From assembly GCA_013619125.1 (NCBI GenBank), contig JABXKS010000001.1, positions 1 to 64,000 of the forward strand: a stretch of DNA of 64,000 bases, read 5' to 3'. The notes below the pieces were generated by a model. It was not told the origin of the DNA and ran no database searches. It worked only from the letters and a program-made list of their open reading frames with translations. Positions 20,148 to 52,313 of this stretch are shown piece after piece. The stretch is from Clostridiales bacterium. GTDB taxonomy: Bacteria; Bacillota; Clostridia; Tissierellales; GPF-1. Both the position numbers and the translations under genes were made by a program. The first letter of the stretch is position 1; each line of letters starts with the position of its first letter.

Positions 20148-20732
20148 ATGAAGGTAAATGCAATCGGACTTCCATGTCCGCAACCCGTTATAGAAACAAA
20201 AAAGGCGTTGGAATCAATTGAGTCCGGTGTTGTTGAGGTTATCGTCGACAATGTGGTGGCCCGGGAGAACGTAAAAAAAATGGCGACGAAGCTAGGATTC
20301 CCCTATGAAGTGAAAGAAGAGGGCGACCATATTGCGGTATTGATTACAAAGGGAGAGAATGTGAAGAAAAAAGAAGTCGTGGAATCAAAATTGGCGCCTC
20401 GCACCATTGCCATTGCGGCGGATACTATGGGCCGCGGCGATGAGGCGCTTGGGAAGATCTTGATGAAGGGATTTATTTATACGCTGACGGAAGTACACCC
20501 ATACCCACAGACGATTATTTTTTACAATAGCGGAGTCAAGCTTGCCTGTGAAGGTGCGGAAAGTATTGAGGATCTTGAAAAACTGGAGGCTGCCGGGGTT
20601 GAAATCTTGGTATGCGGAACCTGCTTGAATTTCTTTGATCTCGGTGATAAGATTGCCGTTGGGTCGGTGAGCAATATGTATTCTATTGTAGAGGCGTTGC
20701 AAGAAACAGAAAATACGTTGATTTTATCATAG
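20148..20732 (+). CDS. yedF: Selenium metabolism protein YedF (sulfurtransferase-like)
   Basis: The 194-residue protein joins an N-terminal TusA/SirA-like domain with the CPxP motif (Cys10) to a C-terminal DsrE/F-like domain containing EILVCGTCLNFF. This two-domain form is the YedF type that co-occurs with selenium use and is thought to handle sulfur or selenium; its precise reaction is unproven. It is translationally close to a DUF3343 gene (8 bases), a pairing known from selenium-using bacteria. The selenophosphate synthase gene often found beside it is absent here. Confidence 0.88.
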   Translation: MKVNAIGLPCPQPVIETKKALESIESGVVEVIVDNVVARENVKKMATKLGFPYEVKEEGDHIAVLITKGENVKKKEVVESKLAPRTIAIAADTMGRGDEALGKILMKGFIYTLTEVHPYPQTIIFYNSGVKLACEGAESIEDLEKLEAAGVEILVCGTCLNFFDLGDKIAVGSVSNMYSIVEALQETENTLILS

Positions 20733-20740
20733 GAGATAAG

Positions 20741-21007
20741 ATGGATATTTTTTATATTTTCACCTTCGATTCTACGCAGCAAGCGATGCGATGCGAGAAG
20801 GAATTGAAAGAAGAGGGATTTCGTGTTCGGATTATTCCGACACCAAGGGAAATTACAGCAAGTTGTGGATTATCCTTGCGATTTGAAAAAAAAGATCAGG
20901 GGAGCATTCAAGACAAGGTGCGAGCACAAAACCTTGAAATTATGGGGATCTATCGTGTAGAGAAGGAAGGCTTGAAGAAGCACGTCTTTCCGGTGAGCGA
21001 AGAATAA
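20741..21007 (+). CDS. DUF3343 putative Se/S-carrier-like protein
   Basis: The 88-residue product has the DUF3343 pattern: an N-terminal FTFDSTQQAMRCEKELKEEG segment, then IPTPREITASCGLSLRF, where the Cys after S is the conserved reactive residue. The family is linked by neighbourhood to YedF and selenium metabolism; the name Se/S carrier-like reflects that association rather than a measured activity. Confidence 0.85.
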   Translation: MDIFYIFTFDSTQQAMRCEKELKEEGFRVRIIPTPREITASCGLSLRFEKKDQGSIQDKVRAQNLEIMGIYRVEKEGLKKHVFPVSEE

Positions 21008-21017
21008 GGAGGTTCCA

Positions 21018-21233
21018 ATGGCGGTTATTCGAAAGTATTATATCGGTGATATTTTGTGGTTAAAGAAACAGCATCCTTGCGGATCTCATGAATGGAAAGT
21101 GGTACGAACGGGTGCGGATATGAAATTGAGATGCATGGGGTGCGATCGGGAAGTTTGGATTGAACGCCGAGAGCTCCATAAGCGTGTGAAAAAAGTGGTG
21201 CTTTCCATGGCGCCCAAGGAAGAAGAGGAGTAA
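21018..21233 (+). CDS. DUF951 family protein
   Basis: The 71-residue protein matches the small DUF951 family of Bacillota: YYIGDILWLKKQHPCGSHEWKVVRTGADMK, then LRCMGCDREVWIERRELHKRVKKV. Three Cys (PCG, RCMGC) could bind zinc. Its function is unknown; it often neighbours rpsF-ssb-rpsR, as it nearly does here. It is the last gene before a terminator. Confidence 0.85.
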   Translation: MAVIRKYYIGDILWLKKQHPCGSHEWKVVRTGADMKLRCMGCDREVWIERRELHKRVKKVVLSMAPKEEEE

Positions 21234-48224: not shown

Positions 48225-50819
48225 ATGATAAAGCATTTTCGAAAATTGACAAAAGAAGAATTCCATTTAGTTGGCGGCAAGGGACATAATTTGGGCATTC
48301 TTTTGCAAGCGGGATTTTCAGTTCCGGAAGGTTTCTGTGTCTTATCAACGGCTTTTGATGATATGATCCAAGGAATTGGAGCAAGGGAACAATTATCCGC
48401 TTTGGATAACTTGGATCCGGAAGACATCAAAACAATTGAAGAAAAGGGCAAAAAAATTCGCGAGTGGATTCTTCAAACAGAAATAAACGAAACCCTAAAA
48501 ACGAAAATGCAAACGGCTTTTGAGCAATTCGAGGATGGAACTTCCTTTGCGGTGCGCTCCAGCGCTACGGCGGAAGATCTGCCGGAAGCCTCCTTCGCCG
48601 GGCAACAGGACAGCTATCTCTTTGTTGAAGGGATTGATGCGGTTATGGTCTCTATTCGAAAATGCTGGGCTTCTCTATTTAATGACCGTGCCATTAGTTA
48701 TCGCTTGAAAAATCAGATCACTCATCGAAATTTATCAATCTCTGTTGTTATTCAACAAATGATTGCACCAAAATACTCAGGGGTAGTCTTTACCGTGGAT
48801 CCGTTATCGGAGAACCGAAAGAATTTGACGGTGGACTATGTAAGAGGTACGGGAGATGAGTTAGTAGCGGGAAAAAGGACGCCCAATACTATCGTCTATC
48901 ATCGTGAAACAAAAGAAATTTTAGTGCACCATCAAGAATCAGAAGAAAATGAAAGACTAGAAGAGTCCGTGATTCACCGGCTTGCGAGTCTTGCGGGTGA
49001 CGTTGAAAATCTTTACGGTATGCCAATGGATATCGAATGGGCGCTTGATCGAGACGGGAAGCTTTGGATCTTGCAGGCGAGAGCCATTACGACACTATTT
49101 CCATTGATCGATCCGGAGCGGGAAGGAAATGCCGTGTATCTCTCCTTCCATCATGTTCAAAATATGATGAAACCCATGCGGACTTTAGGAGCAGACTGTT
49201 TAAAATGGGTTTTCCCCTTTGACAGAGATGAAACAGGCAAGACGCAGATTATGCGGTATGTCGGTGGATATCTATTTGTGGACTTGACCGATTATTTTGC
49301 GGTTCCACTCTTTCGAAAAGTAATTGGAAAGCGGATGGACGTGATCGACGCGGTGATGGCAAGTAGCATGCGCCGGTTGCTTACGGACAAGGAATTTGTA
49401 AAAGGCTTGCAGCCACGCAGCGATAAGGGAAAGGCTCTTTGGAATACGGTGAAGTTTTTGATTCATGGGATGAGACAGGCCAGCCGTCCGAAGAAGTTGC
49501 AGATTGAGGCGTGCAACGTCTTTATCGATGCCTATCTTCATCAGTTGAAGGATGACTTGGAAAAAGAAGAGGATTCGATTAAGCGGTTGGAAGTTTGCAA
49601 GGCAGCCATACAGGGATATTTGTTGGAAGCCTTTACCCGGTTTGTTCCCTATATTGGACCGGGGATGGCCTCCTATCGATTTCTGGTGAAAAAAACCGAG
49701 CGGTTCTTGGGAATCGATGAATTGGCGCAGACCTTGGTGAAGGGTTTGATTGGCAATGTGACCACCGAGATGGGGCTCGTCATGGGAGACTTGGCGGAGA
49801 AAATTCGGGAAGACAATGTGTGGCATCGACGATTGGATCAATGGGACGCGCGTGTTTTTGTTTCTGAGCTGATGCACGAGGAGGGACCAACCGGCGATCA
49901 AATGAGAGTGGTTATGGAACGGTACGGATCACGGGGGATTGGGGAAATCGACATTACCAATGCCCGCTGGTTTGAAGATCCGTCAGCCATTGTCATCAGC
50001 ATTCAAAATCATCTGCGGGTATTTAAACCGGGACAGCATCGACACGAGTACGATGCGATGACACATGCTTCGATTCAGGCTGGCGATGCAATTGTAGAGC
50101 AAATGAGTGCGGGATTCCGGTTGATTTTTCGACGGTTTTACCGAAATATGGTGGATCGTGTCTTGTATCTGATGCCGGCGCGGGAACATGGCAAGTATGG
50201 GTTGATTCTGGTGTATGGCGAAGTAAAAAAGGAGATTAATCGCGTTGCGAAAGAAGCGGTTAATCAAGGATGGCTGGATACGGTGGAAGATGTCTATGAT
50301 TTGGAGTTTGGCGAGATCATGGAGATGGTTAAGAGCAAGAAAGCCATGCAAGAACGGATAAAAGCAAGACAACTTGTTTTCGAAAAGGCAAAGGACCGAC
50401 GCGTGCCGCGTGTTGTGACGAATCACGGTTGGATTGTGCCGCCGGAAGAAACAAATCGAAATATGAAGGATAATGAATTGGGGGGCACCGGTGTATCTAG
50501 CGGTGTTTATGAGGGGATTGCCCGGGTAGTCGAGCACCCGGAAGACGCGAGGATGGAACCGGGAGAAATATTGGTTGCGCCCTTTACGGACCCGGGCTGG
50601 ACGCCGTTGTTTATCCATGCCAAAGGCTTGGTGCTGGAGGTGGGAGGATTATTGACCCATGGTGCCATTGTCGCAAGGGAATATGGTATTCCGGCTGTTG
50701 TGGGGGTGGATCAAGCGACGAGCAAGATCCATACCGGAGATTGGATTCAGGTTGATGGAAGCACGGGGATTGTACGGTTGTTGAAAAGTGAAAAAGCGGT
50801 TGAGGGAGGATTAAAATGA
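48225..50819 (+). CDS. PEP-synthase/rifampicin phosphotransferase-like enzyme
   Basis: The 864-residue protein has an N-terminal ATP-grasp-like PEP synthase domain (LVGGKGHNLGILLQAGFSVPEGF, SFAVRSSATAEDLPEASFAGQQ, PMDIEWALDRDGKLWILQARAI), a long middle domain and a C-terminal swivelling His domain with GGLLTHGAIVAREYGIPAVVG, where His812 carries phosphate. Size and the order ATP domain, middle domain, His domain match rifampicin phosphotransferase (Rph) and its relatives better than 790-residue PpsA. Rph phosphorylates rifamycins; many relatives have no known substrate. The stop overlaps the selenoprotein start by ATGA. Confidence 0.85.
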   Translation: MIKHFRKLTKEEFHLVGGKGHNLGILLQAGFSVPEGFCVLSTAFDDMIQGIGAREQLSALDNLDPEDIKTIEEKGKKIREWILQTEINETLKTKMQTAFEQFEDGTSFAVRSSATAEDLPEASFAGQQDSYLFVEGIDAVMVSIRKCWASLFNDRAISYRLKNQITHRNLSISVVIQQMIAPKYSGVVFTVDPLSENRKNLTVDYVRGTGDELVAGKRTPNTIVYHRETKEILVHHQESEENERLEESVIHRLASLAGDVENLYGMPMDIEWALDRDGKLWILQARAITTLFPLIDPEREGNAVYLSFHHVQNMMKPMRTLGADCLKWVFPFDRDETGKTQIMRYVGGYLFVDLTDYFAVPLFRKVIGKRMDVIDAVMASSMRRLLTDKEFVKGLQPRSDKGKALWNTVKFLIHGMRQASRPKKLQIEACNVFIDAYLHQLKDDLEKEEDSIKRLEVCKAAIQGYLLEAFTRFVPYIGPGMASYRFLVKKTERFLGIDELAQTLVKGLIGNVTTEMGLVMGDLAEKIREDNVWHRRLDQWDARVFVSELMHEEGPTGDQMRVVMERYGSRGIGEIDITNARWFEDPSAIVISIQNHLRVFKPGQHRHEYDAMTHASIQAGDAIVEQMSAGFRLIFRRFYRNMVDRVLYLMPAREHGKYGLILVYGEVKKEINRVAKEAVNQGWLDTVEDVYDLEFGEIMEMVKSKKAMQERIKARQLVFEKAKDRRVPRVVTNHGWIVPPEETNRNMKDNELGGTGVSSGVYEGIARVVEHPEDARMEPGEILVAPFTDPGWTPLFIHAKGLVLEVGGLLTHGAIVAREYGIPAVVGVDQATSKIHTGDWIQVDGSTGIVRLLKSEKAVEGGLK

Positions 50820-51115
50820 AAATAATCATTGAGGATAGTGTCAAGGCATATATGCAAAAAAAAGGTAAGAGTGTGATCACCCTCAGCCTGAGAATGGCAG
50901 GCGGTGGTTGAGCGGGCTCTGTGATCGAGCCGGAGATCCAGCTCGCGGTGCCGGCGGCACCGGAAGAGGATTTTTATGTAAAGCACGAGGTAGATGGAAT
51001 GGATGTGTATTTGCATTTGCCTGTGATGAAAAAAACGGAAGAACTGACTTTTGCTATGGCAGGGGTTTGGATATTTAAGCGGATGATTGCAAAGGGATTG
51101 AATTTACGGTTTTAG
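50816..51115 (+). CDS. Selenoprotein, HesB-like CC/Se motif family (in-frame UGA at codon 32)
   Basis: Translation from ATG 50816 meets TGA at 50909-50911 (codon 32) and continues in frame for 67 residues to TAG. The sequence around it reads SLRMAGGG-U-AGSVIEPEIQLAV; the family normally has GGCC or a Cys at this place, so Sec at 32 fits. The product is 99 residues and ends FKRMIAKGLNLRF. It overlaps the upstream gene by ATGA and the AlaX gene starts 10 bases later. A hairpin follows the UGA (separate entry). Family members are HesB/IscA-related small proteins of unknown role, thought to be redox or metal-binding. Without Sec insertion only 31 residues would form. Confidence 0.85.
50926..50945 (+). 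promoter_or_regulatory. Candidate bacterial SECIS hairpin
   Basis: CGAGC (50926-50930) pairs with GCTCG (50941-50945), and after a mismatch GG pairs with CC around an AGAT loop. The loop G lies about 24 bases after the UGA, within the spacing of bacterial SECIS elements. A nearer hairpin GGCTC/GAGCC (50915-50931) competes with it and is too close to the UGA. Another, GGTGCC/GGCACC, lies at 50947-50961. Confidence 0.55.
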
Positions 51116-51125
51116 GGGAGATGAA

Positions 51126-52313
51126 ATGACAACAAGATTATTTGATCAAGATGTATATTTGAAAGAAGCCCAGGCAAGAGTCGAGGCCATTGAAGAGAAA
51201 GACGGGAAAGTTTGGGTAGTTCTAGATCGGACGATCTTTGCCCCAGAAGGTGGCGGGCAGGATGCGGACCATGGCTGGATCAATGGCATTCAAGTCAGCG
51301 ATGTGCGGGAAAATGGGGAAATGATTCGGCATCTTGTGGCGGAACCCATTTTGGTTGGAACCGAGGTAACCATGAAGATCGATTGGGAACGGAGACTTGA
51401 TCATATGCAGCAACATTGCGGCGAGCATCTGTTGTCTGGTGTGATCTATGAGCGCTTGAAGGGAAACAACAAGGGTTTTCATATGGGAGCCGAGGTGGTG
51501 ACGGTGGATATCGATTTGCCATCGATTCCTGAGGCGATGGTTCTTGAAATTGAAGCGGAAGTAAATCGAAAAATCCAAGAGAATCTGCCCGTGGAAATTC
51601 GCATTGCAGACAAATTGGAAGAACTGGTAGATGTTGCCCTCCGCAAGGAACCGACGGTGGAAACGGATATTCGTGTGGTAAATGTGCCGGGCGTCGATTG
51701 TGTTGCTTGTTGCGGAACGCATCCGTCGCGAACGGGAGAAATAGGAATTCTACGCATTTTGCGGGCGGACAAGTACAAGGGAATGACCAGGATTCAATTT
51801 GTCTGCGGCATGCGTGCAGTGAAAATTTCTACCTTTGAACATCGTATTTTGCGTGAATTGAATCAGCAATACTCGACAGAATCGGCTGGTCTGGTGGACC
51901 GTTTGACGAAAGAGCGAGAAAAAAATTCGAAACTGGAACAAGAATTGAAAGTGTATCAGATTCGGGATATGGAAGTCATGGCCGCTGAATTAATTGCGGA
52001 AAAGCAAATGATTCTCAGCCGAGAATTTGAAACGATGGAATCAGGTATGATGATGAATCTGGCGAAAACAGTATTGAAGGAACGAGAAGCGGCTTGTTTA
52101 TTTGGGAGTTTGTCGGAGAAAAAGGTCGTTTTAATGCACAATATCGAAGGGTTGCATGCAGGTAAGTCCTTTAAGGAAACCATCCAAGCGGCGAATGGCC
52201 GCGGCGGCGGTGGGGCTAATTCAGCGCAAGGAAGTTTCCAAGAGGGTGAGGATCTGAAACGATTCATGGAACAGGTTGAACGGATGCTGAATTCTGAAAA
52301 AATTGACAAATAG
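51126..52313 (+). CDS. AlaX-type alanyl-tRNA editing protein with DHHA1 domain
   Basis: The 395-residue protein matches the editing and C-terminal parts of AlaRS without its aminoacylation domain. It has RTIFAPEGGGQDADHG, the zinc motif HMQQHCGEHLLSG with CCGTHPSRTGEIG downstream (H-x3/4-H and C-x3-H ligands), a coiled coil (residues 240-285) and a DHHA1-like end with a glycine-rich segment RGGGGANSAQGS. It should deacylate Ser- or Gly-mischarged tRNA-Ala. It follows the selenoprotein gene by 10 bases. Confidence 0.9.
   Translation: MTTRLFDQDVYLKEAQARVEAIEEKDGKVWVVLDRTIFAPEGGGQDADHGWINGIQVSDVRENGEMIRHLVAEPILVGTEVTMKIDWERRLDHMQQHCGEHLLSGVIYERLKGNNKGFHMGAEVVTVDIDLPSIPEAMVLEIEAEVNRKIQENLPVEIRIADKLEELVDVALRKEPTVETDIRVVNVPGVDCVACCGTHPSRTGEIGILRILRADKYKGMTRIQFVCGMRAVKISTFEHRILRELNQQYSTESAGLVDRLTKEREKNSKLEQELKVYQIRDMEVMAAELIAEKQMILSREFETMESGMMMNLAKTVLKEREAACLFGSLSEKKVVLMHNIEGLHAGKSFKETIQAANGRGGGGANSAQGSFQEGEDLKRFMEQVERMLNSEKIDK

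Follow-up and report, generated by a model that had tools for sequence, protein, structure and literature searches.

An in-frame UGA almost certainly read as selenocysteine in a cysteine-free CC/Se-family gene of a Clostridiales bacterium

Bases 50816-51115 of the window, by which we mean the whole stretch of 64,000 nucleotides that was analysed, almost certainly encode one protein of 99 residues in which an internal UGA is selenocysteine (Sec) and not a stop. The gene adds a Cys-free member to a previously named selenoprotein family. On the sequence evidence given below, we put the probability at about 0.94 that it encodes a 99-aa CC/Se-family selenoprotein with a HesB/IscA-type domain, whose UGA at 50909-50911 is decoded as Sec through SelB and an RNA element within the coding sequence. 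Reading the frame in this way would correct a likely mis-annotation, with one 99-aa protein replacing a 31-aa fragment and a 64-aa ORF.

50816-51115, + strand: predicted CC/Se-motif selenoprotein gene, 99 aa, Sec at residue 32, stop codon included
50909-50911, + strand: in-frame UGA, predicted to be read as selenocysteine
48225-50819, + strand: upstream gene for a PEP-synthase-like protein (below curated cut-offs), joined to the selenoprotein gene by an ATGA overlap

The frame contains a single TGA (codon 32), preceded by AGGG, and ends with TAG at 51113-51115. Its ATG at 50816 and the stop codon of the upstream gene overlap as ATGA. Both features had been described in an earlier sequence-only reading and both are present. 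The translation, MKIIIEDSVKAYMQKKGKSVITLSLRMAGGGUAGSVIEPEIQLAVPAAPEEDFYVKHEVDGMDVYLHLPVMKKTEELTFAMAGVWIFKRMIAKGLNLRF, has the Sec motif AGGGUAG and contains no Cys at all. The part behind the UGA on its own forms a 64-aa ORF with a GTG start (50921-51115), which is the short ORF that a standard gene caller had been expected to report.

When the UGA was translated as a residue, a profile search matched the protein to the NCBIfam family NF041239, 'CC/Se motif family (seleno)protein', over residues 1-94 with 50.6 bits, and the curated cut-off of this family is 40 bits. HesB models matched the 99-aa protein weakly in the same type of search, a Pfam search of it returned no match, and TIGR01911 gave none up to an E value of 1. 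NF041239 is among the known prokaryotic selenoprotein families, with the motif CxxU, and was first predicted in Moorella thermoacetica (2026 review, PMC13188914, Table 1). Like the family, the protein is small, matches the profile along its whole length above the cut-off, and has a single Sec at the family motif, where NF041239 has Sec or Cys; unlike the listed CxxU, its motif is AGGGUAG without any Cys. The companion Cys (CxxU or CC/CU, as in the review) is thus absent. Since it is also missing in L032, L039, and L044, which are members above the cut-off, it is not strictly defining for NF041239, and Cys is absent altogether from 11 of 56 sampled Sec members. In a 20-sequence alignment, the second Cys of AGCC, GGAC, or KGCC in the Cys homologues aligns with U32, as the sequence-only reading had predicted. 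A larger automatic alignment spread the Sec over neighbouring columns because the loop lengths differ.

In both further species of the genus (L023 in genome G013, 81% identical, and L055 in genome G014) the UGA occupies the same codon. Across the three species protein-level constraint is found on both sides of the UGA, and the profile match spans it. The frame is thus more than a chance feature. In congeneric comparisons of the part behind the UGA, dN was 0.07-0.14 and dS 0.49-1.06. With dN well below dS, the downstream part is therefore a selected protein. The nucleotides that start at the UGA are constrained as well.

50909-50965, + strand: conserved GC-rich (70%) block of 57 nt, putative SECIS, identical in L023 and with 5 differences in L055

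Between the window and L023 there are 0 differences in the 57 nt from the UGA on and 54 in the other 240 nt of the gene. Third positions changed in 0 of the 18 codons after the UGA but in 35 of 80 elsewhere (p = 1.3e-4), and GC content is 70% in the block vs 40% in the rest of the gene. Identity over 57 nt despite 54 differences in 240 nt elsewhere indicates constraint on the RNA as such, which a SECIS would need. These data bear on the alternative that the UGA is a true stop and that ribosomes re-initiate at GTG 50921 to produce the 64-aa ORF as a separate product. An ORF with this start exists, but the Cys homologues are one continuous protein, the profile match runs without a break across the UGA, and the nucleotide constraint begins at the UGA itself, which makes re-initiation very improbable.

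The genome contains the four genes of the Sec machinery that a bacterial selenoprotein needs (selA, selB, selC, and selD), as had been predicted. The tRNA-Sec scored 75 bits and SelA 552 bits. selB lies directly behind selA and is interrupted by an N-gap, and its pieces score below the cut-off. The run of N is at positions 1747-1792 of L014 (contig C91), and automatic annotation may report two broken pieces of selB. The selD gene (L020, contig C58) is cut by a contig end and has its own in-frame UGA at the active site (SSGUGAK). A search for GrdA and GrdB gave no hits, but its controls gave none either, and it therefore does not show that these genes are absent. Thus neither of the outcomes that the sequence-only reading had named as speaking against it, a genome without selenium machinery or homologues that end at the UGA, was found.

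At the level of the order, NF041239 is present in 123 of 249 genomes. Among the listed matches that pass the curated cut-off, most are interrupted by a single in-frame TGA and by no further stop; members with an in-frame TGA occur in at least 66 genomes. A tRNA-Sec was found in 62 of these 66 genomes vs 19 of the 51 that have only TGA-free forms (p = 2e-11, uncorrected for phylogeny). The four TGA-form genomes without a tRNA-Sec are multi-contig drafts of 62 to 98% completeness. Some UGA readthrough occurs in bacteria, and the codon could in principle be read by near-cognate decoding or as Trp. However, the genome has the full Sec machinery, the aligned position in homologues holds Cys and not Trp, and TGA forms are strongly associated with tRNA-Sec; we therefore give this reading an even smaller chance than re-initiation. 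A further alternative is a pseudogene, in which a Cys-type gene was interrupted by a nonsense mutation or by an error in the assembly. Cys forms of the family exist and TGC or TGT becomes TGA by one base change, but this alternative is refuted because both the UGA and the frame behind it are conserved: the same UGA is found in three independently assembled species, dN after it is well below dS, and in genomes with tRNA-Sec the TGA forms predominate.

Under the selenocysteine reading, the ribosome would decode the UGA at 50909-50911 from Sec-tRNA-Sec delivered by SelB, and what recruits SelB would be an RNA element that follows directly on the UGA, within the coding sequence. Two hairpins can be placed in the conserved block.

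50912-50946, + strand: candidate SECIS hairpin (hairpin B), outer helix 50912-50918/50940-50946, inner helix 50923-50926/50935-50938
50948-50962, + strand: second invariant hairpin, GGUGCC-GGC-GGCACC, directly downstream of the candidate hairpin

The published bSECIS rule asks for a loop of 3-9 nt in which G is one of the first two bases, a spacing of 16-37, and an energy of -7.5 kcal/mol or lower (PMC13188914). Hairpin B has the apical loop GAGCCGGA at 50927-50934, whose first base is the 16th after the UGA, and an energy of -15.5 kcal/mol; it falls within the rule at its limits, and competing folds and shuffled sequences do equally well. In L055, helices 1 and 2 of this hairpin show one compensatory change from G-C to A-U, one lost pair, and one pair made wobble. 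Hairpin C, obtained in a 48-nt fold, has the loop AGAU at about +23. It is probably the hairpin noticed in the sequence-only reading, which had placed a G-containing loop about 24 bases after the UGA: such a hairpin does exist, about 20-24 nt downstream, but other foldings compete with it. In a third folding, the one chosen by RNAalifold, the loop is UGUGAUC at +9. The candidate hairpins are mutually exclusive, and their folding energies are no better than those of shuffled sequence for this GC-rich stretch. The scoring of the post-UGA segment as a bacterial SECIS, which had been suggested as a check, consequently did not discriminate; what stands in its favour is the constraint on the 57 nt that begins at the UGA.

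Across the 56 Sec members, a scan with the bSECIS rule gave a mean best hairpin of -8.0 kcal/mol vs -4.5 kcal/mol for shuffled sequences. Other family members have a common loop, N-GU-N, 21-25 nt after the UGA. A loop of this type at this distance was not found in the present gene, and thus the genus differs in detail. A covariance model search of the three genomes of the genus found no second copy of the 57-nt block. It is conceivable, though we regard it as rather doubtful, that the genus uses a non-standard, extended two-hairpin SECIS of 57 nt with conserved sequence that starts at the UGA, is read by its own SelB, and lacks the N-GU-N loop at 21-25 nt, and that the protein functions through its single Sec without any Cys in cis.

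The sequence-only reading had assigned the gene to HesB-like CC/Se proteins. The CC/Se part of this name is correct (NF041239), but HesB-like selenoproteins are only distant relatives and are represented by a separate gene in the same genome. When hhalign was run with 20 family members against 8 HesB-like proteins, the probability was 93% (E value 2.5e-7) and the Sec fell on the Cys/Sec column of HesB. PF01521 gave weak Pfam matches in 3 of the 20 members. By the profile-profile match and these weak matches, the CC/Se family is a distant relative of HesB/IscA. Compared with the HesB-like selenoprotein TIGR01911 (UxGP), the protein shares distant homology and a Sec at the equivalent position but has the motif UAGS, with no GP after the Sec. 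IscA, an A-type Fe-S carrier (PF01521), has C-terminal CxC ligands. The CC/Se protein resembles IscA through the weak matches in the three members, but it has no Cys and hence lacks these ligands.

The protein would thus be a diverged small domain of the HesB/IscA type, with Sec at the Sec/Cys position of HesB-like proteins. Because it has no Cys, a Cys-ligated cluster or a selenenylsulfide in cis is excluded. The Sec, as the protein's sole chalcogen residue, would most likely form a redox centre or a (seleno)persulfide/metal-ligand centre that cooperates with a partner thiol in trans, and the protein may act on a partner thiol, persulfide, or metal. The AlphaFold model (pLDDT 37.6) was too poor to use, and a profile search of solved structures gave nothing significant. 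The gene shows that a widespread selenoprotein family has members whose sole chalcogen residue is Sec, and these lone-Sec members limit the possible mechanisms to those with neither an internal selenenylsulfide nor a Cys-based cluster in cis.

Three further genes of the window belong to the genomic context.

51126-52313, + strand: downstream gene for an alanyl-tRNA editing (AlaX/AlaRS C-terminal-like) protein
20148-20732, + strand: yedF selenium-metabolism gene (TIGR03527, 231 bits)
20741-21007, + strand: DUF3343 gene, now Pfam PF11823 Se_S_carrier

In each of the three species of the genus the selenoprotein gene lies between the PEP-synthase-like gene and the AlaX-like gene, an arrangement that was not seen in the more distant loci sampled. 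The product of 51126-52313 has a DHHA1 domain and does not reach the cut-offs of the named families AlaX and AlaRS. yedF and DUF3343, which the sequence-only reading had placed in the window, are both there, about 30 kb upstream of the selenoprotein gene. Together with a DUF951 gene they form a row at 20148-21233. Elsewhere in the genome, the HesB-like selenoprotein gene L105 (contig C125, 44563-44811, minus strand) encodes GFGUSGP and adjoins a Cys paralogue (GFGCSGP), and both congeneric species have this pair as well. Among distant relatives, CC/Se genes are duplicated in tandem at L072, L079, and L080, and every copy has an in-frame UGA.
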